A stretch of 39,752 bases of DNA. Origin: a virus. The position numbers were made by a program, and so were the translations under genes. Below, piece after piece: positions 15,764 to 35,742 of this stretch (the first letter of the stretch is position 1; each line of letters begins with the position of its first letter). The stretch lies in the IMG/VR virus record IMGVR_UViG_3300040815_000410, positions 1 through 39,752 of that record; one strand, 5' to 3'. A model generated the notes under the pieces. It saw only the letters and a program-made list of their open reading frames with translations. It was not told where the DNA came from and did no database searches.

Positions 15764-15777
15764 TATAAATATAAATA
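15764..15777 (+). promoter_or_regulatory. Overlapping double T4-type late promoter
   Basis: TATAAATATAAATA contains two exact TATAAATA copies (15764-15771 and 15770-15777) offset by 6 bases. Two start sites 6 bases apart are expected, near 15777 and 15783, with a leader of about 50 bases to the ATG at 15831. Confidence 0.72.
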
Positions 15778-16796: not shown

Positions 16797-17528
16797 ATGG
16801 ATATATTATTAACAGGTAGTGAAGGCTTCATAGGTCAACACTTAAATAAATTCTTAAACGAACAAGGTCACAAAGTAATTTGCATAGACAAAGAGTCTGG
16901 CAATGATTTACTTTCCTGCGACTTAAAATATTCTGTAGATTTAGTTATACATCTTGCTGGTTTATCTGGCGTTAGAGATAGTTTAGGTAGACCGACAGAA
17001 TATTGGGAACAAAATGTAATTGCAGGTCAAAGACTATTTCAATATTTCAAAGACACAAGAATCTTATACGCAAGTTCATCAACAGCACATGAGCCATGGA
17101 AAAATCCATATGCCATGAGCAAGTATAGCCTTGAACAGATTGCACCACCTAATAGTGTAGGTATGAGATTTACAACTGTATATGGTCCCAATGCTAGAGA
17201 GAGTATGTTAATACCAAGGATATTAAGAAATGATGTTCCTTATATTAACACAAATCATAGTAGAGATTTTATACACGTTGACGATTTAGTGAGAGCGATA
17301 GATAGTTTGATTAAGTCAAACGTTAAGGGTATTACAGATATAGGTTCTGGTACTACAAACAATCTTATAGAGTTAATAGAACACTTTGGTATAGATTGTG
17401 AAAGGGTTGTGGGAGAACACACCGAAAGACTAGATAACCTTGCTGATAATACCCTACTAAATAATATAGGATGGACACCACAAGTTAATTTATATGAATA
17501 CATAAAGGAGAACAGAAATGATAACTGA
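16797..17528 (+). CDS. NAD-dependent nucleotide-sugar epimerase/dehydratase
   Basis: 243 residues; extended short-chain dehydrogenase family, which works on nucleotide sugars for surface glycans. Visible are the Rossmann loop TGSEGFIG (residues 6-13, pattern GxxGxxG), Asp31 at the end of the second strand, VIHLAGLSGVRDS (50-62), the Ser/Thr-rich ASSSTAHEP near 92-100, and the catalytic YAMSK (Tyr105, Lys109), then MRFTTVYGPNAR and SRDFIHVDDLVRAI. At 243 residues it is clearly shorter than the usual 310-340, with a trimmed substrate domain. It opens the non-structural block; its 3' end overlaps the next gene by 11 bases. Exact sugar substrate cannot be told. Confidence 0.85.
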   Translation: MDILLTGSEGFIGQHLNKFLNEQGHKVICIDKESGNDLLSCDLKYSVDLVIHLAGLSGVRDSLGRPTEYWEQNVIAGQRLFQYFKDTRILYASSSTAHEPWKNPYAMSKYSLEQIAPPNSVGMRFTTVYGPNARESMLIPRILRNDVPYINTNHSRDFIHVDDLVRAIDSLIKSNVKGITDIGSGTTNNLIELIEHFGIDCERVVGEHTERLDNLADNTLLNNIGWTPQVNLYEYIKENRNDN

Positions 17529-18036
17529 AGAATATCTAAAAGATAATTTTGTTAGTGCGTACTTTATCGACCAAGATAGAAAAAACATTGAAGTATTAAC
17601 AACTACTGAAGATAAGAAAAAACTATTTTCTACAATCATACCTTACGAAGAAGGCCATCATCAATGGGTAGCACTTCAAACTAAAATGAATATTGATCAA
17701 TTGCATGAGGCAACTTATCAAAGAAACAAACTTGAACAAGAACAGTTTGAAAAATCTGTATTAAGAATTGCTGAAAAAGAAGGTCTTATATTTGAGTTTG
17801 AAAACAAAAAACTTGATACTAAATTTTACCCTAAAATCTTAACAGCATTATTTGAAGACAATGATAATGTTGATCAAATCTTTGCATTAAAATTAGCATG
17901 TTTTGAAACTAAAAATATTAGTGAGTCATCTAACAATGAGGCAAAGAAAAAGATAAGACAGGCAAAAACTAAACTAGACGTTTTAAAAGCGGCTATTGAA
18001 ATTGCAGAGGTTAGTAGAGTAAACGCAGGAGATTAG
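17518..18036 (+). CDS. Unknown phage protein, charged and helical
   Basis: 172 residues, no family recognised. The start at 17518 lies inside the epimerase gene and has a strong AAGGAG ribosome binding site 9 bases upstream. The N-terminus reads MITEEYLKDNFVSAYFIDQD followed by EVLTTTEDKKKLFSTIIPYE; the rest is helical and rich in Glu and Lys, ending in a probable long helix (NEAKKKIRQAKTKLDVLKAA). No cysteine cluster, signal peptide or membrane segment. The stop overlaps the GTG start of the next gene by one base, so these three rightward genes form a coupled unit. Confidence 0.7.
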   Translation: MITEEYLKDNFVSAYFIDQDRKNIEVLTTTEDKKKLFSTIIPYEEGHHQWVALQTKMNIDQLHEATYQRNKLEQEQFEKSVLRIAEKEGLIFEFENKKLDTKFYPKILTALFEDNDNVDQIFALKLACFETKNISESSNNEAKKKIRQAKTKLDVLKAAIEIAEVSRVNAGD

Positions 18037-18632
18037 TGAAAACTATAATTTTACTGATTGACTTCTATGGCCATCCTGCTTTAACCACAGATAGCTATAG
18101 CGATAGCATGAGATACTCTTATCTTAATGAAATTATATCATCAGGTACTGATAGAAATAGATGTTTATTTTTTTCAACAGTAATAGATCAGAATGATAAA
18201 AAGTTAAGAGAGCTTAAAAATATAGCAATATCAAAAGGGTTTAAATTTTTTACACTTGAAGATGATCCTACTTGGACGAAACCTTTAGATAAGTTCAAAG
18301 ATGATAATTACACTATAGATTATGTAAAATCAAAACTAGGACCATATGATGGCAATTATATTAATCATTTAAATACACAAATAATTGTAACAGGTACTAA
18401 TACTTCAGGTTGTGTGTTTAAAAATAAAGATATAGGTGCTTATCATTGGTCAAAGGCAGGTTATAAAACTAAAATATATTTACCTATGTGTGCCGAGTAT
18501 GAGAATAACGGTAGAAATGATTTTGAAAGAAACCAGATAGGATTTGCTACACTTTATAAAAAAATTTACGATAACAAGTGTTTTGATATTGAAATTTGTA
18601 GAGATTTGGGTGATTTAAACTTACCTTTGTAA
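18036..18632 (+). CDS. Possible isochorismatase-like cysteine hydrolase
   Basis: 198 residues, GTG start overlapping the preceding TAG by one base. The architecture resembles the isochorismatase/nicotinamidase fold: a first strand TIILLIDF with Asp9 at the nucleophile-activating position, a Lys (98 or 100) before a YDGNYINHL segment, then QIIVTGTNTSGCVF with Cys126, aligning with the family GxxTxxCV motif, and a following SKAGYKTKIYLP strand matching the usual GY.v.vv. Length is normal for the family (180-220). The Asp-Lys-Cys triad is inferred from spacing and not proven; substrates range over amides and carbonyl compounds. Its last 12 bases overlap the end of the convergent gene at 18621. 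Confidence 0.5.
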   Translation: MKTIILLIDFYGHPALTTDSYSDSMRYSYLNEIISSGTDRNRCLFFSTVIDQNDKKLRELKNIAISKGFKFFTLEDDPTWTKPLDKFKDDNYTIDYVKSKLGPYDGNYINHLNTQIIVTGTNTSGCVFKNKDIGAYHWSKAGYKTKIYLPMCAEYENNGRNDFERNQIGFATLYKKIYDNKCFDIEICRDLGDLNLPL

Positions 18633-19190
18633 AAAGTATTCAGAATACCAACCATCCCAACCTTTTTCTTGTAGATGGTGCATTTGACCTAAAGTGCATA
18701 CACTAAATTGTGGTGGTTTTTGATACATGTAATCTTTAATTGAAGGACAAACTTTATCATAAGTTTTATATTTGATATTTTTATAATACCATTCATCACT
18801 ACCTCTTGTATATGTTTTTATATAATATTCATCATATTTTTTAAATTTATCCCATATATAAGATACATCACCAGTCCATGATACTATAGATGAGTTCAGA
18901 GGTGTATGGGCACGTTCTCTCCACCATGTATCATCTAATAGTGTAAAATCTTTTCTTATAAGATCAGGTAACTTATCATAGATAACTAAATCTAAATCAA
19001 AGTATAGATTTTCACCATCTCTAAACCTATCATACATTTGAAACTTATTAAACCAATTGCCATATAGATCATCTTCTATAACTTCAAAACTATCATACTT
19101 TAGACCAGAGTATTCGTCTATCATATGTTTTAGGTTATCAACATGCCATTGATTAAACTTATCACCAAATCTACAACAAATTATTCTCAT
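18621..19190 (-). CDS. Small glycosyltransferase-like protein (GT-A type)
   Basis: 189 residues, last gene of the leftward operon. MRIICCRFGDKFNQWHVDNL at the start and GENLYFDLDLVIYDKLPDL (about 59-77) carry a DxD motif, the metal and nucleotide-sugar binding signature of GT-A enzymes. NSSIVSWTGD follows where family members have a conserved N-G/S acceptor loop. It is short for a GT-A enzyme, so either minimal or truncated at the C-terminus. The ATG overlaps the stop of the preceding nitroreductase-like gene (ATGA). No donor or acceptor can be named. Confidence 0.6.
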   Translation of the reverse strand: MRIICCRFGDKFNQWHVDNLKHMIDEYSGLKYDSFEVIEDDLYGNWFNKFQMYDRFRDGENLYFDLDLVIYDKLPDLIRKDFTLLDDTWWRERAHTPLNSSIVSWTGDVSYIWDKFKKYDEYYIKTYTRGSDEWYYKNIKYKTYDKVCPSIKDYMYQKPPQFSVCTLGQMHHLQEKGWDGWYSEYFLQR

Positions 19191-20014
19191 TTAATTTCGT
19201 ATATATTAATTTCACGTGGAATATTTGACATGGTATAGAAAACAGCTTTGTCTGGTAACTCATGTACATTACCATAAGGGTCAGTTGCCTTATCTGATTT
19301 AGTTACATCAACAACTGAACATTGTCTATATTTCCAACCTCTTACATCTCGTTCTTCACCTCTGTCCTTTGAGGAAAGATTGTGACCATTAGCTGCACCT
19401 ATTATTAATTCTTTATCATCTGATTCATTTCTAGGTCTTCCTTCTTGCGGATAACCTATACCTATTCCGTACAACATCTTTTTCTTTTTATGTATGTATA
19501 TATCTTCATATATACCCATTCTACGTTCCCAATTAAAATCACAATCAGGTCCTTGACTATTATTCTTATTACAACCAGTTGCATAACCTAATTCAGCTGC
19601 TGATCTCATAACTAATCCTAACGCAGTACCTACTGCAACTAATCCATTTTCCCATCTAGCTGGATGATCTGTTGGAGTAACAGAACCCTCATTTAAATAA
19701 TTTCTACTTGTTGGTGGATGTTTCATAACAAATAACATAAACATATTAGCGTTCATTTGTGGATTACGCCACGTTGCAGGTGGTTTACCTGAATGAGTAA
19801 ATCCCCACGACCACTTATAAAGTTCTTCTATAACTTTTCTATCAGTTGAATAATGAATATCATAATATGCTTCATGTTGTTTTGATGGTGCATTTTGAGC
19901 TACCCACAAAAGATGATCAACATGCTCTTTAGGTATAGTCTTTGAATAGTCCCAATTTCTTTGACACTTTTGAATTTTTTTTATATATTCTTTTTCTTGC
20001 TCTATATCAACCAT
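19187..20014 (-). CDS. Nitroreductase-like FMN oxidoreductase, divergent
   Basis: 275 residues. The family pattern is visible: an N-terminal helix with QRNWDYSKTIPKEHVDHLL (about 18-36), WVAQNAPSKQHEAYYDIH (the conserved aPSk.n.q segment), then RWENGLVAVGTALGLVMRSA with AELGYATGCNKN, the helix and Gly-rich turn that contact FMN. The first position of the usual RRS motif is replaced by QRN. A C-terminal section with YGIGIGYPQEGRPRNE is typical. It is longer than and distinct from the two tandem nitroreductase-like proteins encoded at 24451 and 25156. Start overlaps the upstream radical SAM gene by 8 bases. The substrate is unknown; a flavin-dependent reduction or dehydrogenation is expected. 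Confidence 0.7.
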   Translation of the reverse strand: MVDIEQEKEYIKKIQKCQRNWDYSKTIPKEHVDHLLWVAQNAPSKQHEAYYDIHYSTDRKVIEELYKWSWGFTHSGKPPATWRNPQMNANMFMLFVMKHPPTSRNYLNEGSVTPTDHPARWENGLVAVGTALGLVMRSAAELGYATGCNKNNSQGPDCDFNWERRMGIYEDIYIHKKKKMLYGIGIGYPQEGRPRNESDDKELIIGAANGHNLSSKDRGEERDVRGWKYRQCSVVDVTKSDKATDPYGNVHELPDKAVFYTMSNIPREINIYEIK

Positions 20015-21425
20015 TGTAATATTCCTTTAGTTCTGGAAATACTTCAAATAAATGTGATTCCCATTTTGTTCCTACATATGCTTTGTCCTGTTGTAACATA
20101 TAGTTTAACGTGTCCTGAAAATCATTGTCTGGTTCTTCATCCATTCGTAATGCAGCTTGAATATCAGGCCAGCCTTCATATTTTGGTATAAGTTGATCTT
20201 TTAGTTTTCTAGGTAGATTATGTACTCTTAATGATTTAGGTCTTTCAATCATCAACCAACCTGCACCTCTAATCCCAGGATTATCTCTACAATATTTAAT
20301 TACTTCATCAAATCGTAAAACACTAAAACATGTAATTACAGAATTAACATCAACGTGTGCCTTACCTTTGTATTTGTCTGAATTTAATAATGCTATATTT
20401 TCTTCTATTTCTTTCCAGTTTGATCTTCTTCTTAAATACTCAGCATTCTGATTAATACCATCAATAGAAGCAGTAAATGAAGTTTCTTTAAATTTAGGCA
20501 CAAAGTCAATAAATTTATGTTTGCCTTCGCCTAATTTTGTAAGATTAGTTTGAAATTTAATTTTTATGTGAGGTGCGTGTCCTGTTTTTACTATTTCTTC
20601 TAAAAACTCAAAATACTTTTTCATTATCAATGGCTCACCACCTATAATTTTTATACTATTAAGATATGGAGCAAGTTCTTTTATTTGTTCAATAACATCT
20701 TTTTTGTCTATTTTATTTAAATTATCTTCAACAAGTTTAATTTTATGATTTGTTTTTTCCATTGAACCAAACATCTTTTCACTATAAACATCATGTTTTC
20801 TCATCATATCAATACGCATAGATGAGCTGTCATGGTTACACATATGACAATCTAAATTACATTCTACACCAAAAGACTTTAATTGTATTTGCATTATTCT
20901 TTCGTCAAAAGTCCATACACCTGTCTTCTCGTACATTCTAACGTTTCTTTCTATAGCATCCCAACGTTCTTTAGTACTTGACTCTTTCCACATATGGTGT
21001 GTTCTACGAGATTTACCATATCTCTTTTCATCACTAATACATCTTATACAATGTTCATTAATTGCTTTAGTACCATGTTTTGCAGGATCTAACATTTCTT
21101 TTCTTAAATCATTCATATATTTACTATCTTCCATCCATGATTTTATAGATGTATTGTTTATATTATGATCTTTACTTCCAGCTGCAAGACAACACGCTTT
21201 AAATCTACCATCTAATTCTATAAACATCTCACTAAAAGGAAAATGACAGAACCAACTTCTCTTATCTTTTGCTCTATTCATAATAGAGTTAGGGTCTTTT
21301 TTTCGTTCTTCACCATCTTTTGATAATGTTTCAAACCAACCTGAAGTATCAACATCACCTGGCTTACTGTTAGATACAGCAGTCATTCTTTTTTTATGTA
21401 ATCTCTTATCTAATTTATTTTGCAT
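20007..21425 (-). CDS. Radical SAM enzyme with N-terminal twitch/SPASM domain
   Basis: 472 residues. A cysteine-rich N-terminal domain comes first: Cys60 in SWFCHFPFSEMFIELDGRFK, Cys78-Cys79 (ACCLAAG), and Cys126/Cys129 (HCIRCISDE), a twitch/SPASM auxiliary-cluster pattern. The radical SAM core follows, with Cys189, Cys193 and Cys196 (GVECNLDCHMC, CxxxCxxC) and GGEP at 262-265. Placing the auxiliary domain before the core is the reverse of most SPASM enzymes. It should cleave SAM to a 5'-deoxyadenosyl radical; the substrate is unknown. AGGA lies about 8 bases before the ATG at 21425, favouring it over the internal Met14. Overlaps both neighbours by about 10 bases. Confidence 0.85.
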   Translation of the reverse strand: MQNKLDKRLHKKRMTAVSNSKPGDVDTSGWFETLSKDGEERKKDPNSIMNRAKDKRSWFCHFPFSEMFIELDGRFKACCLAAGSKDHNINNTSIKSWMEDSKYMNDLRKEMLDPAKHGTKAINEHCIRCISDEKRYGKSRRTHHMWKESSTKERWDAIERNVRMYEKTGVWTFDERIMQIQLKSFGVECNLDCHMCNHDSSSMRIDMMRKHDVYSEKMFGSMEKTNHKIKLVEDNLNKIDKKDVIEQIKELAPYLNSIKIIGGEPLIMKKYFEFLEEIVKTGHAPHIKIKFQTNLTKLGEGKHKFIDFVPKFKETSFTASIDGINQNAEYLRRRSNWKEIEENIALLNSDKYKGKAHVDVNSVITCFSVLRFDEVIKYCRDNPGIRGAGWLMIERPKSLRVHNLPRKLKDQLIPKYEGWPDIQAALRMDEEPDNDFQDTLNYMLQQDKAYVGTKWESHLFEVFPELKEYYNG

Positions 21426-22140
21426 TTCGTGGTCCTAAATAGTGAATAATTTTTATTTTTTCGTGTGGGTCACCTAGTATCATATAATCTGTATTAAACT
21501 TCTTACTATACATTTTATTTAGTTCTATGTTTTGTCTGTCTTCATTTGTGTATTTAACGATCCACTCACCAGGTAGATACTTAATATTTGCTTTGTGTTC
21601 ATCAAGTTTCCAAAAGACATAGTTTTGTTCGCCATAATATTTGTAATGAACATCACCTTTGTTATAGTAATGTAATTGCCAGTATTCAGGATTTAATGAG
21701 AAGTCGTCCCATACATATTTAAAACTACCTGACTTAAACTTATAAAAACCACCATTGATAGGTATTATAACTCTATCAGCAAATTTATTTGTTTTAACAT
21801 TCCACCAACTATCATATGTAAGTAATTCACCTTCTTTTACAGGATAGTTTAGTATCTCATCAACGTTACCTACAATCTGTTGATCAATATCCATTATTAT
21901 AATATCATCGCCAGGATTTTGATATGCAAATTGAGGACTAAAGTATTTTAATTTATGCCAGTGTTTCTTAATATTACTATGATGATTATAAGGTAATACT
22001 ACATCTGCCTCAACGTCTGTATCACTTAAACAAATAAACTCAAAAGGCACAGTACTATTTTCTTTTAGTGATCTATACAATTTTGATACATGTTCAGGTT
22101 TATATAAACCTTCAAAATATACAGTACAAATTTTAAGCAT
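21415..22140 (-). CDS. Glycosyltransferase-like protein (GT-A, DxD)
   Basis: 241 residues from the ATG at 22140. An in-frame TTG at 22212 would add 24 residues, but the ATG is preceded by GGAGAG at a good distance and shares ATGCTTAA with the upstream stop, the usual overlap in this operon. MLKICTVYFEGLYKPEHV, PFEFICLSDTDVE and WHKLKYFSPQF match a family of marine phage and bacterial transferases. DDIIIMDIDQQIVGNVDEIL carries the DxD and the strand-turn after it; INGGFYKFKSG is the acceptor-side loop. Probably adds a sugar from a nucleotide donor onto a glycan or protein. Confidence 0.72.
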   Translation of the reverse strand: MLKICTVYFEGLYKPEHVSKLYRSLKENSTVPFEFICLSDTDVEADVVLPYNHHSNIKKHWHKLKYFSPQFAYQNPGDDIIIMDIDQQIVGNVDEILNYPVKEGELLTYDSWWNVKTNKFADRVIIPINGGFYKFKSGSFKYVWDDFSLNPEYWQLHYYNKGDVHYKYYGEQNYVFWKLDEHKANIKYLPGEWIVKYTNEDRQNIELNKMYSKKFNTDYMILGDPHEKIKIIHYLGPRNAK

Positions 22141-23002
22141 TATTGTATGCTCTCCAAACAACTTCAAATTTTTTATTGATAGCATGACATAGTACAACTG
22201 ATTTAGGTACAAAACCTTGATCAGAAAAGAAGTAATGCCATTTCTGATTTAACCATTGTATTGGTATATCATTTTCTGCTATCTTAACTGCAAACAATGT
22301 TTCATTATCCCAACCAAAAAAGTCTGTAATCTTTTTAGGATACATCTCATGGCCTTTAGTTAGTCTGCTCATTTCTGCCATATCAGAATCAAAGTTATCA
22401 AAGTATTTTAATTTTTGTATGTACTCTTTACTTGCACCAACAATACCTGTATTGACTACATGATGTTTAGGATTTAATTCTCTATCTAATAACATTGCTT
22501 GAGCGTTATAATATTTTGCTGTTGGACTACGAATAGTTTGTGATCTTTCAGTTACGTCTTCCATAGGAATAACTTTATGTGTATTGTGTTGTATCGCAAT
22601 ACCTTTTGATAAGTCCCATGCCTCAAAGAAATTATCACCGTGCATAGGTACTACATCAAAATCTAAATAAAGTATTTCATCATATTGTTCAGCAAGTTTA
22701 TAAAACAAATGTATCTTATAAAAATTTACTACATTGTATGCTGTAATATATGGATACTTTCTTTGCATATTTTCTTTATATAAGATAAAATCTACATCAT
22801 ACTCAAACATTTTAAAATCTACGCCCAATTGTTTTGCGTACCATTTTTTACAAGCTACTAATTTTGTATAATTTTGTTTAAAGGCATCCTTTGTAACATA
22901 ATTAATAGGTACAGATTTATTTGCTATTAATATATTCTTATCAAATATATCCAATTCTTCTTTTGGTATATCAATGTAAAAACTATATATTATTCTTTTC
23001 AT
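22133..23002 (-). CDS. Glycosyltransferase (GT8-like, DxD)
   Basis: 289 residues from the ATG at 23002; a TTG at 23014 would add four residues (MVNF) and is less likely, although neither start has a strong Shine-Dalgarno. The central AEQYDEILYLDFDVVPMHGD carries the DxD of GT-A enzymes of the GT8/GT32 type. HHVVNTGIVGASKEYI is the typical NTG loop, and DFFGWDNETLFAVKI the downstream acidic motif. The C-terminus (VVLCHAINKKFE) has the conserved His expected after the donor site. Overlaps the methyltransferase gene by 20 bases and the next transferase by 8, so it is part of a coupled glycan-modification set. Confidence 0.75.
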   Translation of the reverse strand: MKRIIYSFYIDIPKEELDIFDKNILIANKSVPINYVTKDAFKQNYTKLVACKKWYAKQLGVDFKMFEYDVDFILYKENMQRKYPYITAYNVVNFYKIHLFYKLAEQYDEILYLDFDVVPMHGDNFFEAWDLSKGIAIQHNTHKVIPMEDVTERSQTIRSPTAKYYNAQAMLLDRELNPKHHVVNTGIVGASKEYIQKLKYFDNFDSDMAEMSRLTKGHEMYPKKITDFFGWDNETLFAVKIAENDIPIQWLNQKWHYFFSDQGFVPKSVVLCHAINKKFEVVWRAYNNA

Positions 23003-23591
23003 AAAATTTACCAACTATCATAAATCTAGTTCCTCTATCATCTGTAATACTATCTTCAACTAATACTTTAGCGTTTTCAGGCAATTGATTTTTAAATTCT
23101 TCATTATCATTTACACAATTAACATGACCTTTTATATCAAACATATTATTTGATGTAAAGGCAAAGTAAGCATTAGAGTCATGTAGTGCTTTTAGTTCTT
23201 TCATAGGTTTCATATGCTCACAAGAAGTATTAATTATGAGATTAGCATATCGTATTCGTCCGTATCTATTTTCGTTGAACACATCACTTGTTATAAAATC
23301 TACATTTTCATAATGATTAAATATTCTACTTTTTGCCATACTAACAACAGCTTTATCTAAATCAATTAACGATATTCTTTTTGCTTCTTTTAAAGCAGGT
23401 ATCAATATACTGCCATACCAACCACCTAGTATCGTAATTTCAGATTTATCATTTACAACGTTTAAATCTCTAATATGAGATATTAATTTTTCTTTAGTTT
23501 TAAATTGATTAGGACTAAATGAATCTAAAAGATCATTATTGTGTCTGGCTTCTGCCATTATATTCTTAAACAGTTGTAAATCAATGTTCAT
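22983..23591 (-). CDS. SAM-dependent methyltransferase-like protein (class I)
   Basis: 202 residues. The Rossmann-type motif I appears as ITILGGWYGSILIPAL (Gly56-Gly60 region), followed by the acidic strand end RISLIDLDKAVVSMAKSR (Asp77/Asp79, ribose binding) and NVDFITSDVFNE (motif III). ANLIINTSCEHMKPMKEL occupies the catalytic loop. No DNA-methyltransferase (D/N)PP(Y/W) motif is present, so a small molecule, sugar or protein target is more likely. The start forms TAATG with the upstream PP-loop gene stop. Confidence 0.7.
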   Translation of the reverse strand: MNIDLQLFKNIMAEARHNNDLLDSFSPNQFKTKEKLISHIRDLNVVNDKSEITILGGWYGSILIPALKEAKRISLIDLDKAVVSMAKSRIFNHYENVDFITSDVFNENRYGRIRYANLIINTSCEHMKPMKELKALHDSNAYFAFTSNNMFDIKGHVNCVNDNEEFKNQLPENAKVLVEDSITDDRGTRFMIVGKFYEKNNI

Positions 23592-25152: not shown

Positions 25153-25155
25153 TTT

Positions 25156-28203: not shown

Positions 28204-28808
28204 TTTTTACTAGGCAATAAAGGATCATTTTCACCATTTTGCCATCTACCAGATTTCATAACATAAAAATCAACACCTATATCTCTAGCCATTTGCTTAC
28301 ATGTATCTATATCGTTTTCATTATAGTTAAATACAATGTATTGCCACATAGGTTTTTTATATAGTATTTTAGTGGCTTCTTTCATAACTCTAAATAACTT
28401 TTCACCGTCTTGGTTGATACGATACTTATGGCTATCTTTAGGAAGACCATCTATAGAAAATCGCCACAACGCTCTTGGATTTGTTTTAAATGCTTCTATA
28501 TACCACTTTTCAGATTTAGCTGCACTAGCATGTTGAACAGCCACACTTATTTCTTTATCATAACACATCTTTAATATTTCTAAAAATTTAGGATGGTGCA
28601 CAGGATCTGAATATTGTCCTTCAAAGTTTATATGATTAAAATATTTTATTAACTTATTAAAACTATCTATAGGCACATCTACACCTGGTACTTTCTTACC
28701 TTCGTTTACATAATCCCATTGTCTTGCACAATTAGGACATAATAAGGAACATCTATGAGTAGTATCTAAATTTATTGCATCTCTTTTGATAAATTCTTTA
28801 TAGTTCAT
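28185..28808 (-). CDS. Free-standing radical SAM core, pair 2
   Basis: 207 residues. Cys20, Cys24, Cys27 (HRCSLLCPNCARQW) make the CxxxCxxC cluster site. In place of GGEP it has FEGQYSDPVHHPKFLEILKM, where SDP aligns with GEP. LWRFSIDGLPKDSHKYRINQ and MWQYIVFNYNEND are strongly shared with the core encoded at 31540. The chain stops after the radical SAM barrel and has no SPASM domain; that domain is encoded by the overlapping upstream gene (28805-29209), joined by ATGA. The two products may work as a complex. Length is about half that of ordinary SPASM enzymes. Confidence 0.82.
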   Translation of the reverse strand: MNYKEFIKRDAINLDTTHRCSLLCPNCARQWDYVNEGKKVPGVDVPIDSFNKLIKYFNHINFEGQYSDPVHHPKFLEILKMCYDKEISVAVQHASAAKSEKWYIEAFKTNPRALWRFSIDGLPKDSHKYRINQDGEKLFRVMKEATKILYKKPMWQYIVFNYNENDIDTCKQMARDIGVDFYVMKSGRWQNGENDPLLPSKKWRAGN

Positions 28809-29209
28809 TTTTTCTCTTTTGTGTATCTTTGTGAATAAGTAGATTTTTCATAATCTACTATATTTCCCTCTTTGTCATAATGAGTATCTTCTCTTGTTGC
28901 CTTAATAGGCGTTCCATCAGTTTTAGTACCACAAGTTTCTAAACATGCTAAACATGGTGGTATATCTTTTGTTAAAAGATCGTAAAATTCTTTCCATTCT
29001 TTAGTTTCAAATATGTCATCTATCTTGTTATAGTCTGATACCTTGCTAACTTTAACTAATGGTTGAAACCGAGGATCTCTCATATTCTTCTTACTATCAC
29101 AATAACAACAAGGTAGTAACTCACCTTTGTTTGACATAGCAAAAGGAAACTTTTCAAAACACATAGGTTTCATTTTTATGTTTTTTATATCTTTATATCT
29201 GTTGGTCAT
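28805..29209 (-). CDS. Free-standing SPASM/twitch protein, pair 2
   Basis: 134 residues, no radical SAM core. Cysteines lie as in SPASM/twitch auxiliary domains: Cys17 (KPMCFEKFPFAMSNKGE), Cys34, Cys35, Cys37 (LLPCCYCD), then Cys86, Cys89, Cys93 (PPCLACLETC). The DIFETKEWKEFYDLL helix is the standard iFn..ew..fr segment of SPASM domains. Closely related to the protein at 31212. Here the SPASM gene is upstream of its radical SAM partner, opposite to the other pair. The final 35 residues are hydrophilic and lack cysteine. It presumably binds one [4Fe-4S] cluster and helps place substrate in its partner. Confidence 0.75.
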   Translation of the reverse strand: MTNRYKDIKNIKMKPMCFEKFPFAMSNKGELLPCCYCDSKKNMRDPRFQPLVKVSKVSDYNKIDDIFETKEWKEFYDLLTKDIPPCLACLETCGTKTDGTPIKATREDTHYDKEGNIVDYEKSTYSQRYTKEKK

Positions 29210-30455
29210 AAAATTTATTAAAGGCTATCTTTAACTTTCTTTTGTTTTTAAATGGTTCTTCTTCTATGTAACCTGGTGTTTGATATATCTTCTCTACAAT
29301 ATATTCGTAGATAGGTTCTGTTGTTTCTTTTAGTAAACTTTTATCAAATAGATCATCACCTAATATTTTTTTCATATCATCTACAAATTGATCTTTCTTG
29401 TATTCTAACGTAAGTATGATTGTTTGAATAATCTTATTAACTTCTTGTTTAGTCATCCATGGGTGTATAGGTAAAGACAATATAGTATCACAAACTATTT
29501 TGCTTATAAACATATCATCTGCTCTATGTTCTATTTCTCTATACATTTTGTTTTCAGATAATGGTAACTCATAATGTACTTTTGCGTCTAATACTTTTTT
29601 AAGATTATCTCTAACTTCTTTATTTTGTAATCTGATAACATACTTGTGATAGTTATGGTCTAAACCATTTGTTGTAGGTTGTATTGTAACATATTCTTGT
29701 AATTGTTCATCATACATTTTAGCAATTTCTTGTCTTCTATTTTGCCATTCTTTCATCTTACTTAATCTAAAATTAATAAACTCGGCATTCATTAATAACA
29801 TTTTAGAGTTGTAACCTAATATCTCACGCTCACCATGTTTTCTTAACTTCTTAAACATCTCTGCTTTTTCTTTGTCATCTGTACAGATAGCCCCACCACC
29901 TGCAATCCCAGCAACAACTTTGTTTGCATTGAAACTTAATGTTGATATGTCACCTATTGATCCTGCCTTGACACCATTTAGACTTGCACCTAGTGATTGA
30001 GCTGCGTCTTCAATAAATGCGATATTCTTTTCTTTACAAAATTCTAATATCTCTTTTGTATCTGACATGTTACCAAATAGATGTGGATAAACAATTGCTT
30101 TTACTTTGTCCGAATACATACGTTTAATACTATCTAATGACATATGATAAGACAATATATCAATCTCACAAAATACAGGTGTTGCACCGACCATAGATAC
30201 ACAAGACGCTGAAGATATCCATGAGAATTGTGGTACTAATACCTCGTCACCTTTTCTTATACCTAAACTTCTTAAAGCAAAATGTAATGCGTCTGTGCCG
30301 TTACTACACGCAACAACATATTTTCTACCTGTGTATAGTTTAAGTTTATTTTCTAAAAACTCAACGTTTGCTTCCTGTTCTTTTTGCATTGACTTTTCAA
30401 AAAGTTGTAGATAATCAACTTTGTTTTCTTTAAAATCTCTATCCCAACATGTCAT
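29193..30455 (-). CDS. DegT/DnrJ/EryC1/StrS-type sugar aminotransferase
   Basis: 420 residues. PLP-dependent transamination of nucleotide keto-sugars, for amino sugars in surface glycans or antibiotics. Motifs: ACSNGTDALHFALRSLGI (49-66), EVLVPQFSWISSASCV, VYPHLFGN (123-129), AFIEDAAQSLGASLNG with Asp150 (PLP pyridine contact), and STLSFNANKVVAGIAGGG with Lys179, the Schiff-base lysine, where GIAGGG replaces the usual GEGG. After the normal end near residue 365 there is an extra tail of about 55 residues (EPIYEYIVEKIYQTPGYIEE), not part of the family. GAGG precedes the ATG. Overlaps the neighbours by 17 bases each. Confidence 0.87.
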   Translation of the reverse strand: MTCWDRDFKENKVDYLQLFEKSMQKEQEANVEFLENKLKLYTGRKYVVACSNGTDALHFALRSLGIRKGDEVLVPQFSWISSASCVSMVGATPVFCEIDILSYHMSLDSIKRMYSDKVKAIVYPHLFGNMSDTKEILEFCKEKNIAFIEDAAQSLGASLNGVKAGSIGDISTLSFNANKVVAGIAGGGAICTDDKEKAEMFKKLRKHGEREILGYNSKMLLMNAEFINFRLSKMKEWQNRRQEIAKMYDEQLQEYVTIQPTTNGLDHNYHKYVIRLQNKEVRDNLKKVLDAKVHYELPLSENKMYREIEHRADDMFISKIVCDTILSLPIHPWMTKQEVNKIIQTIILTLEYKKDQFVDDMKKILGDDLFDKSLLKETTEPIYEYIVEKIYQTPGYIEEEPFKNKRKLKIAFNKFYDQQI

Positions 30456-31215
30456 GTATAAACCTCGCTAGTTTTTGTTGTCCTTGTCTATTAGGATGTA
30501 AATCTATTTTTGATATTCTATCAGTAGTATTATCTAATACTTTATCAGATAAACTATAACCATTTAATCTTGGATCTGTAGGCCATCCTATAAAATTATT
30601 ATTAATTTTTTCATAATATGGACTATTGTGTATTTGTGCCAAGTACTCTTTTTCTCTTTTTTCTTTCCAATGTTTTTCATCAACTGTTAAATCTTCTGGT
30701 TTATTTAAAACAGGAATTTGTTTATTATCTAAAACTTGTTTTGTTCTTCTGTTGATAAGTTCTTGCCATAGATAACCTTTAAATAAATCTACCATTTGAA
30801 ATTGTTTATAAGGTAGTTTAAAATATTCACACACAGTTTGAAGACTATAATAATATCTTAATGACCTATCAATCCAATAATTCATAAAACCTTTTGTATC
30901 ATACATATCATTTGTCCATTTTGCTTTTTGTAAATATAAACTTTCTATCTGATAGTCACGTCTAGGTGCTGTACTCCAAGCTGCGATAACTAAACCTATT
31001 TTAGAGTGATCAATAGTTTGTAATTTATCAATTATATTGCTGTAGATATATTCTTGTCCTGCACCTGACTCACTAACATTTATAAGTTCCATATCTAATC
31101 TATCAGCAAGTAATTGTGGCCATTTAGGCCAACTAACATCTAATTCAGGATGGTGTATAGATGTAAATCTTTCGTTTGAATAACTACACCCAGCAACTAA
31201 TAATATTTTTTTCAT
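30439..31215 (-). CDS. SGNH/GDSL-family hydrolase-like protein
   Basis: 258 residues. Block I is ILLVAGCSYSNERF with Ser11 as likely nucleophile (GCS in place of GDS, common in phage members). ELINVSESGAGQEYIYSNII (about 43-62) supplies block II Gly and Asn. VIAAWSTAPRRDY covers the block III strand, where the usual GxND is replaced by AAWST. Block V is SKIDLHPNRQGQQKLARFI with Asp238 and His240. The family includes sugar O-acetylesterases and acetyltransferases. The long middle (about 90-210) is aromatic and charged, without known domains. ATGA overlap with the upstream SPASM gene. A role in removing or adding acyl groups on a glycan fits the context but is inferred. Confidence 0.7.
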   Translation of the reverse strand: MKKILLVAGCSYSNERFTSIHHPELDVSWPKWPQLLADRLDMELINVSESGAGQEYIYSNIIDKLQTIDHSKIGLVIAAWSTAPRRDYQIESLYLQKAKWTNDMYDTKGFMNYWIDRSLRYYYSLQTVCEYFKLPYKQFQMVDLFKGYLWQELINRRTKQVLDNKQIPVLNKPEDLTVDEKHWKEKREKEYLAQIHNSPYYEKINNNFIGWPTDPRLNGYSLSDKVLDNTTDRISKIDLHPNRQGQQKLARFIHDMLG

Positions 31216-31550
31216 ATTAAGTCTTCTATTTTTTGTCTATCTCTACCTGTTCTTTTCTTACAATGAGTAATACAAGTAGGTATGACTTTTTTTAAATTTT
31301 TTTCTGCTAAATTTCTTGCAAAATCTTGCCATTCTTTTGTTAGTAATATATCTTCAATACTATTATGATCACTTATTTTACTAACTTTTAACATCTCTTT
31401 CATAACAGGATGTTCTAACGCACTAGATTGATCCATCCAACAACAAGGTATTAATTCACCTCTATTAGTCATTGCAGCTTGCATACGTTTTTCTATTGAA
31501 CCATGTGCTGGCATACATCTAGGTTCTAATATTATTTTATCAGATGGCAT
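31212..31550 (-). CDS. Free-standing SPASM/twitch protein, pair 1
   Basis: 112 residues. Cys12 (EPRCMPAHG), Cys36-Cys37 (MTNRGELIPCCWMD), Cys93 and Cys97 (IPTCITHC) form the auxiliary iron-sulphur pattern; NSIEDILLTKEWQDFARNL is the typical SPASM helix. No SAM-binding core. It starts inside the end of the radical SAM core gene (11-base overlap, different frame), with the core upstream: the same order as a normal single-chain enzyme, but split. A frameshift in the overlap could in principle fuse them. It is a paralogue of the protein at 28805, which has one more cysteine after CC. Confidence 0.75.
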   Translation of the reverse strand: MPSDKIILEPRCMPAHGSIEKRMQAAMTNRGELIPCCWMDQSSALEHPVMKEMLKVSKISDHNSIEDILLTKEWQDFARNLAEKNLKKVIPTCITHCKKRTGRDRQKIEDLI

Positions 31551-32202
31551 TAAGTGATACCTCTTTATTCTTTGGTCTTAATGGGTCATCATTATCATTC
31601 CAACGTGATGATTGTACTAACATAAATCCTACACCATTTTCTTTTGCCATTTGTTTAGCTTCTTCAATATGATCTTCATTATAGTTAAATATAATATATT
31701 GCCAAACTGGTGTTACCTCTAAATGTTTTTTAGATTCAATCATTATATTAAAAAGTTTTTTACCATCTTGGTTTACTCTATACTTGTGACTTTCTTCTGG
31801 TAAACCATCTATACCAAATATCCATTGAGCATGTGGATTTGCTTTAAAACATTTTATAAAATATTCTTTAGATTTTTGTGAAGCTGCATTATGTATTTCA
31901 ACTATAGTCTTTTTCTTATACAACATTTCTAATATTTCAGGAAACTTAGGATGATGTACAGGATCAGATAATTGACCACAAAAAATAAAATCATTATAAT
32001 AGTCTGATATTTTATCTATTTCTTTTAAAGTAAGATCACGTCCTGGTACTTTTTTACCCTCGTTACGCCATTGTCTTTGTCTTTGACATCTAGGACATTC
32101 AAGTGGACACCTAAAACTTATATCAATATTCAATGATCTTCTACTCATAAAATATTGAATATCTTTAGTTATCTCTAACTCTTTTTGTATTTCTTTGCTC
32201 AT
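31540..32202 (-). CDS. Free-standing radical SAM core, pair 1
   Basis: 220 residues. Cys32, Cys36, Cys39 (SFRCPLECPRCQRQRQW) bind the cluster that cleaves SAM. FCGQLSDPVHHPKFPEILEM replaces the GGEP region, and WIFGIDGLPEESHKYRVNQ plus VWQYIIFNYNEDHIEEAKQM match the core at 28185 almost block for block; both also share NEGKKVPG after the cysteines. The chain ends without SPASM cysteines; the overlapping downstream gene at 31212 supplies that domain. ATGA overlap with the gene upstream. Likely a two-component radical SAM enzyme; substrate unknown. Confidence 0.83.
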   Translation of the reverse strand: MSKEIQKELEITKDIQYFMSRRSLNIDISFRCPLECPRCQRQRQWRNEGKKVPGRDLTLKEIDKISDYYNDFIFCGQLSDPVHHPKFPEILEMLYKKKTIVEIHNAASQKSKEYFIKCFKANPHAQWIFGIDGLPEESHKYRVNQDGKKLFNIMIESKKHLEVTPVWQYIIFNYNEDHIEEAKQMAKENGVGFMLVQSSRWNDNDDPLRPKNKEVSLNAI

Positions 32203-33059
32203 ATTAGTTTTAATAAATTTTTTACTTTATCTTTACTTTGTGTTAGGCAGATCACAGGCCTATTCCAATATACTTTGCCGCCATCATGTTTATATTTATT
32301 CCTTAAATAAACGACTTCTTTTTTGAGCCATCTAAACTCCATGAATAGTCTTGGAGCAGGATCAAAGTTAGGTTTTGTATAGACATATGTTTCAAACTTA
32401 CCTAATATATTTGTGATTGGCACCATTAGATTGTTTAGTTTAGGGTTTATAAATTTGTCGTTGTATGTTATAATACCGTGATCAGGATAATTATGTATAT
32501 GTTTTTCTACTTCTCTATAGTATATCTCATTTGTGCCTAAAAACAAATACTTAAATTGTATATCTTCTTTTATAGGTTTGTATATACTAAAGTTTATTAT
32601 CTTTTCAAATTGTTCTCCTACACCATTGACATATACATCATGGTCGCATAAGTCATAAACTTTTTTAGGTTTGAAATATTGTAACGCAATAGGATATTCT
32701 CTAACATGATTTTCAGAATATACAGATATAAGATTACCACTAAACAATAAATGTAAAGTTAGAAGTTGATCATTATTGTAAGTATGTTTATTTAAGTATG
32801 CTAAAGTTATTTGACTTCTACCCATAATCAATGTTATATCATTTGACGTAGGTGTGTAAAAATCAAATATTACATTTTCATATTTGACATAACATTCATT
32901 TAGAGCATTGATATAAGATTGTTCAGAAAATCTATGGTCTCTTATGATTATCAGTTTTGCTTTTACACCTAAATCATTCAGAAAACAACAATGTTCATAA
33001 CTATAATGTAGAAGACCATCACCAGGCTTACTTGTACATACTATATTTACATTTTTCAT
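32199..33059 (-). CDS. Glycosyltransferase-like protein, first gene of leftward operon
   Basis: 286 residues. The start reads VNIVCTSKPGDGLLHYSYEH, like the N-terminal loop of GT-B transferases. The C-terminal part has GKFETYVYTKPNFDPAPRLF followed by MEFRWLKKEVVYLRN, resembling the GT-B donor-site segment in which a Pro-Arg and Glu precede a Gly or Leu turn. No DxD is clear. Identification is by overall pattern and is tentative; other nucleotide-binding proteins are possible. The ATG at 33059 lies 5-6 bases downstream of a perfect sigma70 promoter and has no Shine-Dalgarno, so it may be translated from a leaderless message. Stop overlaps the radical SAM start (ATGA). Confidence 0.5.
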   Translation of the reverse strand: MKNVNIVCTSKPGDGLLHYSYEHCCFLNDLGVKAKLIIIRDHRFSEQSYINALNECYVKYENVIFDFYTPTSNDITLIMGRSQITLAYLNKHTYNNDQLLTLHLLFSGNLISVYSENHVREYPIALQYFKPKKVYDLCDHDVYVNGVGEQFEKIINFSIYKPIKEDIQFKYLFLGTNEIYYREVEKHIHNYPDHGIITYNDKFINPKLNNLMVPITNILGKFETYVYTKPNFDPAPRLFMEFRWLKKEVVYLRNKYKHDGGKVYWNRPVICLTQSKDKVKNLLKLI

Positions 33060-33064
33060 ACTAT

Positions 33065-33093
33065 ATTATAACACATTTTATTATATCTGTCAA
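33065..33093 (-). promoter_or_regulatory. Perfect consensus extended sigma70 promoter of the 18-gene operon
   Basis: On the minus strand TTGACA (33093-33088), a 17-base spacer ending TGT, then TATAAT (33070-33065): both hexamers perfect, optimal spacing, and a TGn extension of the -10. The expected start is at or within a base of 33059, the A of the first ATG. It should be recognised by unmodified host RNA polymerase, in contrast to the late promoters of the structural genes. Confidence 0.8.
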
Positions 33094-33104
33094 ATAGACG
33101 ACAC

Positions 33105-33112
33105 TATTTATT
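33105..33112 (-). promoter_or_regulatory. Possible late promoter upstream of the sigma70 promoter
   Basis: AATAAATA on the minus strand, matching the cyanophage late element NATAAATA. Expected start near 33099 with a leader of about 40 bases. It could keep the operon on late in infection, but a single 8-base match in AT-rich DNA is weak evidence. Confidence 0.35.
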
Positions 33113-33126
33113 GACTAAATAACTAT

Positions 33127-34296
33127 ATGATTTTAGACCAAAATATAGACTTTTCCAAGTTGAGAACATACAGATTAGATAGAGTAAAAAAAGAGCTAGA
33201 AAAACAAAATATAGAAGCCTGTATATTGTTTGATCCAGTTAATGTTAGATATGCGTTAGACACTACTAACATGAGTGTTTACAATTTACACAATTTAACA
33301 AGATATTGTTTTGTGCCAGTCAATGGACCAACAATTCTTTATGAGTATTTTGGTTGTGAATATCACGCTAAACATTTAAATCTAATTGACGAAATAAGAC
33401 CTGCAATCACATGGGATTATTTTAGTCATGGAGATCAGGCAGAAAAAGAATTAAAAAAATGGGTTAATGATATAAAAGATTTATCAAAATATTTTAAAAA
33501 TAAAAAAATCGCAATTGATGTAATTAATGGACCCGCTGTTACAGCATTGAATAAAGAAGGTATTGAAGTAGTTGACGCTAAATCAGTACTTGAACAGGCA
33601 AGAGTTATTAAATCACCAGAGGAACTAAAATGTATTAAAGAAGCAGTGAAAGTTGTAGAAATTGGTGTTACAAGAATGAGAGAAGAATTAAGAGCTGGCA
33701 TGACAGAAAATCAGTTATGGTCAATTTTACATAAAACAAATATTGAATATGGTGGTGAATGGATAGAAGGCAGATTATTAGCTTCAGGTCATAGAACAAA
33801 TCCTTGGATGCAACAATGTAGTCACAAAGTTATTGAAAGTGGAGAATTAGTAACTTTTGATACAGATACAGTTGCGTCTTATGGATACTTGGCTGATTTT
33901 TCCAGAGCTTTCGTTGAAGGAAATAAGTTTAGTGATTATCAGAAAAAATTATATTCAATTGCTGTTGAACAAATAAATCACAATTCAGAATTGATTAAAC
34001 CTGGTTTATCATTTAAAGAGTTTTTATCTAAATGTTATAAACTTCCAGAACCTTATTATGGTAATCGTTATCCTGCCATAGTTCATGGAACTGGTCTTTG
34101 TGATGAATGGCCATTTATTAAATGGAATACAGACGGCGGCGAACAAAGTGGACAATTTGAAAAAGATATGACTATTTCAGTTGAGGCATATGTAGGTGAA
34201 GTAGGTGGTAAAGAAGGTGTTAAATTAGAACAACAATTTCATGTTGGTGAAAATGGACTTGAATTATTATCCCACCATCCATTAGAGAATTTGTAA
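33127..34296 (+). CDS. M24-family metalloenzyme, DddP-like (DMSP lyase candidate) or Xaa-Pro peptidase
   Basis: 389 residues. An N-terminal creatinase/prolidase-type domain (about 10-155; IEACILFDPVNVRYALDTTN) precedes a pita-bread M24 domain (about 165-385). Metal ligands: Asp245, Asp247 and Asp257 (VTFDTDTVASYGYLADFSR), His320 (AIVHGTGLCDEWPF), Glu353 (TISVEAYVGE) and Glu368 (VKLEQQF). The DxD pair, its 12-residue distance to the third Asp, the 15-residue Glu-Glu gap and Asp326 six residues after the His follow the Fe-binding and catalytic pattern I recall for the DMSP lyase DddP, not that of prolidase or PepP. DMSP is a major substrate of SAR11 cells. Other M24 enzymes with FDTD exist, so activity remains open. 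Divergent from the leftward operon; no good promoter seen. Confidence 0.8.
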   Translation: MILDQNIDFSKLRTYRLDRVKKELEKQNIEACILFDPVNVRYALDTTNMSVYNLHNLTRYCFVPVNGPTILYEYFGCEYHAKHLNLIDEIRPAITWDYFSHGDQAEKELKKWVNDIKDLSKYFKNKKIAIDVINGPAVTALNKEGIEVVDAKSVLEQARVIKSPEELKCIKEAVKVVEIGVTRMREELRAGMTENQLWSILHKTNIEYGGEWIEGRLLASGHRTNPWMQQCSHKVIESGELVTFDTDTVASYGYLADFSRAFVEGNKFSDYQKKLYSIAVEQINHNSELIKPGLSFKEFLSKCYKLPEPYYGNRYPAIVHGTGLCDEWPFIKWNTDGGEQSGQFEKDMTISVEAYVGEVGGKEGVKLEQQFHVGENGLELLSHHPLENL

Positions 34297-34311
34297 TGAT
34301 AAGGATTTGTA

Positions 34312-35391
34312 ATGTTATTCGCAGATAATGTAGATAAAAAACTTTTACCTAAAAATATTCTTATATTAAATGCTCGTAAAAAAAATGAAACTATAGTAGA
34401 GTTTTGTTTAAAGTACGGCATTAATTTTAAGATGTTTGAAATAGCTAATAATAATCATTTTAATATAAGTGAAAAATTAAAACCATATACTACATATCTT
34501 CCAGAAAAGCAATTATATGATCCACAATATTATATAAAAAATTTAGATTTTGAACCTGAATATATTATTAATTTTAGAGATGAAGAACCATCAGTTAAAT
34601 TAGAATATCAACTTTCTCTTTACTATAATACTAAAACAAAATTTGATAAAAGAGCTTTAGAGTTTTTTATATCTAAAAAAGAACAAGACCGAGTAGCTAA
34701 ATTGATGGGTATACCTACTTTAGATGAAGGAGGACCTGATGATAAAATTATAGTAAAAACAGATTTAGGTAATTCAGGTGGTGGTGATGGTTATAAAATT
34801 GTTGACGCTAAAAAAAATCATATAGTACAACCAAATGATTTTATACAAAGATATATTGATTATGATTATACAATTGATCAACACTTTATAATTGATAATG
34901 AGGGTGAGTATCATATATATAATCATTTTTTAGGTAAATTTGGAGATGGTAATGTTGTAGGTAATAATATTGCATATCTGTATAAGTATCCATTTCCAAC
35001 TAATTGTTTTGAAGAAGAAGATATTGCTATAATACATGAGTTTTTTACAAAATTAAAAGATCATATAAGTGTTAGAAACAGGATTGGTATTTCAGAATTT
35101 TCTAAAGAAAGAAAGACTGGCAAATTACGTTTCCAAGAACTTAATTGTAGACCTTCTGGTGAATTTGAATTAGGAGGGTATGATTGGAATGCAGGTAAAT
35201 TTAATACAATAGTAGATTATTTTACAGGTAACATACAAGAAGAAATAGAATACTATCAACAAAGTACAGAAATATATTTTGATAATGTTTATAATAATGC
35301 AAAATTTGGTTGGGGAAACGGAGAGGGTTTAAAAATTGAGAGATTGCCCTTTAAAGAAAGAATAAAAGTATTTAATACAAAGTCAAAATAG
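34312..35391 (+). CDS. ATP-grasp ligase-like protein
   Basis: 359 residues. ATP-grasp signatures: DKIIVKTDLGNSGGGDGYKI (Lys149 and the Gly156-158 loop), DFIQRYIDYDYTIDQHFIID (about 177-195, adenine-side strand) and KLRFQELNCRPSGEFELGGY with Glu276, Asn278, Arg280 (Mg and phosphate binding). The first 110 residues form a pre-grasp region without recognised domain. Such enzymes join a carboxylate to an amine or thiol using ATP, for example in peptide or amino-acid ligation. It starts 16 bases after the M24 gene with AAGGA before it, so the pair is probably one transcript. Substrate unknown. It is the last gene of the metabolic block. Confidence 0.75.
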   Translation: MLFADNVDKKLLPKNILILNARKKNETIVEFCLKYGINFKMFEIANNNHFNISEKLKPYTTYLPEKQLYDPQYYIKNLDFEPEYIINFRDEEPSVKLEYQLSLYYNTKTKFDKRALEFFISKKEQDRVAKLMGIPTLDEGGPDDKIIVKTDLGNSGGGDGYKIVDAKKNHIVQPNDFIQRYIDYDYTIDQHFIIDNEGEYHIYNHFLGKFGDGNVVGNNIAYLYKYPFPTNCFEEEDIAIIHEFFTKLKDHISVRNRIGISEFSKERKTGKLRFQELNCRPSGEFELGGYDWNAGKFNTIVDYFTGNIQEEIEYYQQSTEIYFDNVYNNAKFGWGNGEGLKIERLPFKERIKVFNTKSK

Positions 35392-35393: not shown

Positions 35394-35401
35394 TATAAAT
35401 A
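35394..35401 (+). promoter_or_regulatory. T4-type late promoter abutting a start codon
   Basis: Exact TATAAATA followed by GTAGT and the ATG at 35407. The expected start coincides with the ATG, as at 811, and there is no Shine-Dalgarno. It marks the return to structural genes. Confidence 0.7.
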
Positions 35402-35406: not shown

Positions 35407-35742
35407 ATGGCAGCTGTAGCAAATTTTACGATAGATCAAGGAACTACTTTCAGTTCAACGGTAACAGTTAAAGATAGTGCGGGAAGTCCGTTAGATTTAA
35501 CTGGTTATACGGCAACTGCAAAGATGGCTTTGGGTTATGCGAGTACAAGAACACGTACAGATTTAACCATAGAATTTACAGCAGATAGAACGACAGGTGG
35601 TATCACTATGTCACTAACTGCAACGCAAACAGCAGCTTTAGAAGCACCTGCAAGATATGTGTTCGATATGGACATAACAGACTCTTCAGGTACAGTAACA
35701 AGAGTAATTGAGGGTCTAATGACTGTTAGACCTAACGTATAA
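35407..35742 (+). CDS. Small Ig-like tail protein (BppU N-terminal-like)
   Basis: 111 residues. NFTIDQGTTFSSTVTVKDSA, PLDLTGYTATAKMAL, RTTGGITMSLTATQTAAL, ARYVFDMDITDSSGTVTRVI and EGLMTVRPNV make a single beta-sandwich of the type found at the N-terminus of baseplate upper proteins (BppU) and in many small phage tail proteins. No other domain is present. It is likely an adaptor or decoration of the tail fibre complex. The late promoter sits directly before the ATG; the next gene follows 19 bases after the stop. Confidence 0.72.
   Translation: MAAVANFTIDQGTTFSSTVTVKDSAGSPLDLTGYTATAKMALGYASTRTRTDLTIEFTADRTTGGITMSLTATQTAALEAPARYVFDMDITDSSGTVTRVIEGLMTVRPNV

Follow-up and report, generated by a model that had tools for sequence, protein, structure and literature searches.

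What a long block of metabolic genes is doing in the structural module of a marine T4-like phage, and how much of it moves between phages, is the question raised by IMGVR_UViG_3300040815_000410, a 39,752-base viral fragment from IMG/VR that we analysed over its whole length (the window), and whose end at 39752 falls inside fibre genes. The window contains the T4-type baseplate genes gp25, gp6 and gp8, and comparison of gp8 places it nearest, among named phages, to Pelagibacter phage Mosig EXVC030M, with HTVC008M and Methylophilales phage Melnitz next. Using the list of open reading frames (ORFs) and their translations, we confirmed the claim of a first-pass annotation that an 18.6-kb non-structural island interrupts the structural-strand genes: these stop at 16766 and restart at 35407, and the 23 genes between them comprise three on the forward strand (16797, 17518 and 18036; genes are named by first position), 18 on the reverse strand (18621–33059) and two more on the forward strand (33127 and 34312). 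The reverse run had been called one unbroken overlapping series, and its adjacent genes do overlap or abut, except at one 3-nt gap (25152/25156); over ∼19–33 kb both GC skew and AT skew change sign. The island is probably best read as an early/late host-surface glycan operon coupled to an exchangeable, late-expressed metabolic slot, which in the window holds a relative of DddP, a lyase of dimethylsulfoniopropionate (DMSP) (Table 1).

The two parts meet in a 67-base gap (33060–33126), which holds the sigma-70 promoter of the reverse run. Promoter-like matches in 14000–33500 total 126, as expected by chance (122.4), and among those listed the one before 32199 is the only 12/12 match; it is kept at 10–12 of 12 positions in 16 of the 18 loci with gene 32199, and the same 16 loci possess, by eye, a reverse-strand ATAAATA. 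All 10 forward ATAAATA sites in the window fall within the 4 % of positions that lie ≤80 nt upstream of a forward gene, and the slot opens with CTAAATA-N5-ATG, its spacing identical to that at genes 824 and 35407. The late promoter of cyanophages has been described as NATAAATA, and their middle genes as having overlapping early and late promoters (PMC2984593). By its motifs, the reverse run appears to begin at a promoter of the early sigma-70 type to which a T4-type late motif is joined, from which we infer the timing of its expression.

The cargo slot (33060–35406) lies between 32199 and 35407, at the upstream end of the reverse run, and its content differs between phages. Cargo in relatives is mostly on the forward strand, and includes a TctA-type transporter among others (G204 and, by sequence likeness, G210), a desaturase (G207) and a radical SAM protein with a weak B12-domain match (G208; Pfam). 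In three loci (L202, L203 and L213) the ATP-grasp gene directly follows 32199, with no gene between, and L207 preserves a deletion scar in which approximately the first 16 nt of the DddP-like gene are joined to approximately the last 20 nt before the ATP-grasp gene. In L204–L206 the slot is occupied instead by a different, FrhB-like gene of 1.3 kb encoding an FrhB/FdhB-type iron-sulfur flavoprotein (L204:1202-2467, L205:2733-3998 and L206:757-2031; family assigned by searching one of the three proteins), at 63–69 % identity to SAR11 proteins of the same host operon as the DddP-like gene. In a further relative (L235:4751-6822) we noted a TctA-type transporter gene as cargo with, by eye, a TctC-like gene alongside.

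Between the window and L010, synonymous divergence (dS) was 0.14 for the DddP-like gene (bootstrap 95 % 0.09–0.20) and 0.23 for the ATP-grasp gene (0.16–0.30), with values of 0.77 (0.57–1.05) and 1.71 (1.05 to saturation) for the neighbours 32199 and 35407, respectively; against L007, dS stepped from 0.05 to 0.77 at the right border. As synonymous divergence jumps at the slot and the right border, we conclude that the DddP-like/ATP-grasp pair moved between phages and, judged from these comparisons, the DddP-like gene is gained, lost and exchanged among them. Mobility, which the first-pass annotation had tentatively ascribed to the entire island, is thus a property of the cargo.

The protein encoded by 33127 matched DddP over nearly its full length (NF043017, E 9.5e-96; PDB 4rzy, E 9.9e-75) at 34–35 % identity, the first ∼50 profile positions being missing. 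It belongs to the superfamily of the DMSP lyase DddP (4RZY/4B28; PMC4108388, PMC5395565) and keeps all six metal ligands (Asp295, Asp297, Asp307, His371, Glu406 and Glu421) as well as Tyr366 and Asp377 (residues as given in PMC4108388). In DddP the peptidase histidines are described as replaced by Asp and Phe (PMC5395565). At these two positions, as we assigned them, the phage protein carries Asp and Met, the assignment of position 278 being our own; Met278 was found in 3/3 phage and 13/13 SAR11 proteins, compared with Phe or Tyr in 12/12 of the DddP clade. The substrate-binding histidines of M24 peptidases are, by this assignment, absent; the earlier label of 'M24' was a misreading, and we rejected filing the gene under that family. 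The proteins most similar to it come from SAR11, the most abundant bacteria of the ocean (67–77 % at 13 loci), with near-complete copies in 32 of 197 Pelagibacteraceae genomes and a fragment in two more. In the tree the three phage proteins nest among those of SAR11 (support 98/92), and by this ancestry the phage gene is of SAR11 origin; the SAR11/phage group falls outside the clade of DddP 4RZY, the sole proven DddP included, some deep branches being long or open. We rejected filing the gene as DddP, and call it DddP-like, because of Met278, this position in the tree and an NF043017 score of 321.3 bits, below the cut-off of 600.

It is possible that the phage protein is nevertheless a true DMSP lyase, which would split SAR11-stored DMSP to dimethyl sulfide (DMS) and acrylate late in infection. 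The near full-length match and the conserved active site are consistent with this, the identity is close to the 32 % between RdDddP and FgDddP, the enzyme of Fusarium graminearum is named among DMS makers (PMC4108388), and the DMSP store of SAR11 is given as millimolar (PMC10030565). The same eight active-site residues are, however, kept throughout the wider DddP-like family, and the three features that led us to reject the name, together with the missing N-terminal stretch, point the other way. Moreover, 44 of 240 alphaproteobacterial genomes possess family members (E 1e-60), often as several paralogues, and only four exceed the curated cut-off; for this reason the wider family probably does other things, and lyase activity in the phage protein seems to us unlikely. 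In the open-access literature searched (PMC) we met no report of a DddP, or of a DMSP lyase of this kind, in a phage; a fibre domain resembling DMSP lyase at 18 % identity (PMC8228385) is a different protein.

In SAR11 the DddP-like gene follows a Rieske oxygenase, for which the closest NCBIfam model is glycine betaine monooxygenase (below cut-off), and is followed by genes resembling 2-oxoglutarate oxygenases/halogenases, an aldolase-type gene, a gene similar to L-carnitine dehydrogenase and the FrhB-like gene. DmdA-like and MTHFR-like genes run divergently, and betaine (OpuA)-type transporter genes lie nearby in two SAR11 genomes by our own reading of the sequence; this is apparently an operon for catabolism of onium compounds (betaine- or DMSP-like). 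When 300 phage proteins were compared with 23 SAR11 neighbourhoods of the DddP-like gene, the only matches were the DddP-like protein and the three FrhB-like slot proteins. Among 197 SAR11 genomes, 34 carried the DddP-like gene (two as fragments), 22 the FrhB-like gene and 18 both, compared with 3.8 expected (hypergeometric P 8e-13, a value inflated by the shared ancestry of the genomes), and in 12 genomes the two lay on one contig and strand, 1.4–8.7 kb apart. From this co-occurrence and proximity it follows that the genes occupying this position in two different phage groups are both members of a single host operon. As a tentative extension, the promoter-plus-start-codon socket might take genes of a single SAR11 onium operon one at a time, and a late DddP-like enzyme might cleave DMSP or a betaine-like osmolyte, millimolar in SAR11, such that infection would redirect an ocean C, N or S pool and may release DMS.

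In the explanation that we favour, the first part of the island is an ancestral 18-gene reverse run, with the epimerase alongside, whose early host-type promoter is overlapped by a late motif and whose products most likely synthesize an unusual amino/carbamoylated sugar and attach it; this sugar would alter the phage's own fibres or else the surface of the SAR11 cell, where it would keep rival phages out. The second part is the slot between the first reverse-run gene and 35407, read from a late promoter that ends in the start codon and filled with genes swapped between phages: in the window a DddP-like enzyme from the SAR11 onium-compound operon and an ATP-grasp enzyme, in sister phages another gene of that operon, or neither. 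The layout, the conservation of the promoter sequences, the empty site, the deletion scar, the exchange, the SAR11 ancestry and the common operon in the host are what the analysis shows, and expression timing, the glycan function, the onium substrate and the benefit to the phage are what we infer here from sequence.

Protein families were checked in Pfam, NCBIfam and PHROGs, although not each protein against each library. The carbamoyltransferase, DegT aminotransferase and epimerase named in the first-pass annotation proved firm. For its three nitroreductases, PF00881 was over cut-off in 19187 and 24451 and below it in 25156; four proteins carry CX3CX2C (20007, 27334, 28185 and 31540), and of its four radical SAM cores Pfam Radical_SAM placed two over cut-off (20007 and 27334) and 31540 below, with 28185 matched weakly by NCBIfam and PHROG models only. 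PP-loop, methyltransferase, SPASM and SGNH assignments come from weak matches or motifs, and ATP-grasp was supported by fold: 34312 gave no hidden Markov model (HMM) match, and its structural model (predicted local distance difference test, pLDDT, 66.7) matched biotin carboxylase and PurK folds in Foldseek (best E 6.4e-9). Profile searches of PDB sequences yielded no credible match for the families of 34312, 18621, 22133 and 32199. The nitroreductase-like pair (24451–25845) is a tandem duplication, its DNA 73–80 % identical in two stretches, and the split radical SAM core with a separate small SPASM-like partner is present in two copies (28185–29209 and 31212–32202), the pair being doubled in some relatives too.

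Four radical SAM proteins, two SPASM-like partners, three nitroreductase-like proteins and an ATP-grasp enzyme would also suit a reverse run that makes a small molecule or modified peptide instead of a surface glycan. We consider this improbable: we noticed no gene for a precursor peptide among the listed ORFs (no search for one was made below 60 aa), the island genes with the strongest conservation (epimerase, glycosyltransferase-like, carbamoyltransferase and DegT) fit sugars, and similar islands are read as O-chain genes in PMC7029224. The cargo, for its part, could consist of neutral passengers kept for genome size, as the ratio of non-synonymous to synonymous divergence (dN/dS) of the ATP-grasp gene is 0.9–1.0 in two comparisons, the slot has suffered gene loss in L207, and 'stuffer DNA' has been raised for lipopolysaccharide (LPS) genes (PMC3037559). 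For the DddP-like gene, however, dN/dS was 0.18–0.21 in two more distant comparisons, with no amino acid change in a third; by these ratios it is under purifying selection, and with its active site intact and the late-type motif kept at its start codon, neutrality of the cargo is a decidedly poor account. The ATP-grasp gene (34312–35391), viewed by itself, has a dN/dS of 0.5–1.0, near 1 between close phages, its neighbour gene being conserved.

Occupancy of the site was surveyed with the VrlC C-terminus as anchor, using the best 80 of 176 matching viral loci; 27 with <3.5 kb downstream were left out and 53 judged. The island head was present in 33, always with gene 15831, and the remaining 20 had neither; a 35407-type gene was seen in 15 of these 20 and in 10/10 long island-bearing contigs. 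Empty sites mapped in L168, L181 and L184 run from VrlC through 14705, a 14923-like gene (unmatched in L181) and small fibre-type genes to a 35407-type gene, and in HTVC008M and Melnitz, where the island is absent, the order likewise goes directly on to fibre genes. The island is thus real and sits at a fixed site, and the anticipated empty site exists and ends as supposed; gene 15831, which had been expected to remain there, belongs to the island. Of the proposed borders, 35391–35407 stands, whilst the left one is moved from 16766–16797 to nearer 15760, since 15831 occurs only together with the island head. An assembly join at the right border was ruled out by L005 and L006 (other IMG datasets), which span it at 100 % aa identity; the left border is spanned by L121 at 91–100 %.

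Most of these genes recur in Mosig, with site, order and strand unchanged, and the core and its order are common to Mosig and to full or near-full maps of six viral contigs, in which the cargo differs. Stable reverse-run genes across these maps, with insertions, are 18621, 21415, 22133, 22983, 25836, 27334, 29193, 30439, 31212, 31540 and 32199; in G212 much of the run has been lost or replaced. The island is ancestral in this phage lineage, since Mosig carries it at the corresponding site and more distant relatives do not have it, and in close VrlC relatives the core was inherited along with its neighbours. Recent insertion by recombination between flanking fibre repeats, as first proposed, would accord with the fibre-type repeats on both flanks and the existence of island-less relatives, but core, order and border genes are common to 33 loci and Mosig, the fibre motifs are general and recur in island-less HTVC008M and Melnitz, and the sharp divergence steps fall at the slot and right border and not at the repeats, all of which makes it very improbable. 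Separately, contig C49 (L244, 7.6 kb) of SAR11 genome G038 carries an island-like operon with up to 82 % identity (the carbamoyltransferase). This contig is perhaps phage DNA in an infected SAR11 cell; VrlC and gp6 were not found in genome G038.

The island is a host recognition cluster (HRC) of a pelagimyophage, a known kind, and neither it nor its site is new. As described (PMC7029224, Zaragoza-Solas et al. 2020), the HRC is hypervariable, lies between VrlC and gp14, and holds fibres, glycosyltransferases and radical SAM cassettes; likewise, the window island lies downstream of VrlC in the structural module, mixes fibres, glycosyltransferases (18621 weakly) and radical SAM genes, and is hypervariable in content between related phages. 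That its content goes beyond the usual for such phages was not upheld, given this publication and the same core in the same order in Mosig. Unlike the HRC in that description, the window phage group displays a two-part layout, a shared promoter, a slot and a DddP-like or FrhB-like gene, and the auxiliary metabolic gene section of the same paper names no DMSP or DddP gene. Identity to the Mosig run (MT647606; PMC7892664) is mostly 37–82 % aa; in contrast to the window, that run is headed by one extra nitroreductase-like gene, and its cargo is annotated as desaturase, Asp/Arg hydroxylases, taurine dioxygenase and peroxiredoxin, with no DddP-like gene. LPS clusters of cyanophages such as P-SSM2 are a further case of sugar-surface genes in marine T4-like phages, by description at other genome positions (PMC2984593, PMC3037559). 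Within the searches made, three things are new: the layout of promoter and slot, the presence of a DddP-like gene in phages, and a single host operon shared by two alternative cargos.

A number of observations weigh against the reading of a glycan operon with an exchangeable slot. The promoter is missing in two of the 18 loci, namely the G038 contig and Mosig, whose run has a different first gene; CTAAATA is not enriched in the window (nine found vs 16 expected), eight of the nine copies being chance-like; and the DddP-like gene is rare, with six IMG/VR contigs besides the window. Loci of one population, or of the same virus from several samples, recur, such that locus counts are not independent. 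Library searches gave no family match for 22133, 32199 and 30439, and the model of 18621 (pLDDT 71.9) has glycosyltransferases as its top Foldseek matches, weakly (best E 0.02). Most of the carbamoyltransferase homologues in SAR11 are distant, and a 31540-type radical SAM was found in 0/197 SAR11 genomes at E 1e-10, a set without a positive control; the core is therefore not a recent host capture, and on the latter count we rejected capture of the whole run from SAR11. Finally, an FrhB-like gene occurs outside the slot in another T4-like phage (L270:4185-5444). There it stands among replication-type genes, by eye beside a UvsX-like gene, and a split radical SAM/SPASM-like pair follows.

Table 1. 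Features of the island and its borders in the window
Feature	Position	Strand	Evidence
VrlC-type structural protein, left anchor of site	8641..14703	+	63 % to Mosig VrlC; anchor of 80 loci
Two structural-strand genes between VrlC and island	14705..15759	+	Mosig and HTVC008M homologues; position shared by many VrlC-anchored loci
Three overlapping/adjacent ATAAATA late-promoter motifs before 15831	15756..15777	+	Motif search; motif from PMC2984593
311-aa gene, function unassigned, only with island	15831..16766	+	33/33 loci with island head, 0/20 without
NAD-dependent sugar epimerase/dehydratase	16797..17528	+	PF01370 E 3.3e-27
Two genes without firm family; 18036 cysteine hydrolase-like by eye only	17518..18632	+	Family searches
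Probable GT-A glycosyltransferase	18621..19190	-	D65-L66-D67 invariant in 24 sequences; weak Foldseek
Nitroreductase family	19187..20014	-	PF00881 27.0 bits, over cut-off
N-terminal-twitch radical SAM protein	20007..21425	-	NF033640 277.9 bits, over cut-off
Glycosyltransferase	21415..22146	-	phrog_1962 E 4.7e-14
Conserved LDFD-motif protein, glycosyltransferase-like by motif only	22133..23002	-	DFD invariant in 20 sequences; no family match
Methyltransferase-like (22983) and PP-loop ATPase-like (23591)	22983..24460	-	Weak matches; SGGxDS motif
Tandem nitroreductase-like pair	24451..25845	-	PF00881; duplicated DNA 73–80 %
NodU/Nol-type carbamoyltransferase	25836..27341	-	PF16861 E 2.2e-66
Radical SAM protein	27334..28203	-	PF04055 over cut-off
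Split radical SAM core (28185) and small SPASM-like partner (28805)	28185..29209	-	phrog_21308 E 6.7e-15; motifs
DegT/PseC-type sugar aminotransferase	29193..30455	-	PF01041 E 4.3e-82
SGNH-like by motif only	30439..31215	-	No HMM match
Second split pair: SPASM-like (31212) and radical SAM core (31540)	31212..32202	-	Weak Pfam matches
First gene of reverse operon, conserved, without assigned function	32199..33059	-	Profile searches
Sigma-70 promoter TTGACA-N17-TATAAT, 8 nt before ATG of 32199	33065..33093	-	12/12 match
ATAAATA late motif upstream of sigma-70 promoter	33105..33111	-	Motif search
CTAAATA-N5 before cargo start codon, plug-in point	33115..33126	+	Spacing as at 824 and 35407
DddP-like protein (DMSP-lyase superfamily), SAR11 origin	33127..34296	+	Profile, PDB, tree
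ATP-grasp protein, fast evolving	34312..35391	+	Foldseek E 6.4e-9; dN/dS 0.5–1.0
ATAAATA late motif at right border	35395..35401	+	Motif search
Right border gene, 111 aa, LtfC-like (weak)	35407..35742	+	PF23926 below cut-off; in 10/10 long contigs

Surface oceans are dominated by SAR11 and its phages, and onium osmolytes (DMSP and betaines) are major marine currencies of C, N and S. Through a phage gene of the DMSP-lyase superfamily that evolves under purifying selection and passes between phages, viral infection would be linked to the onium-osmolyte cycle, and a slot with gained, lost and alternative genes would amount to a natural presence/absence experiment on what a metabolic gene does for a phage.

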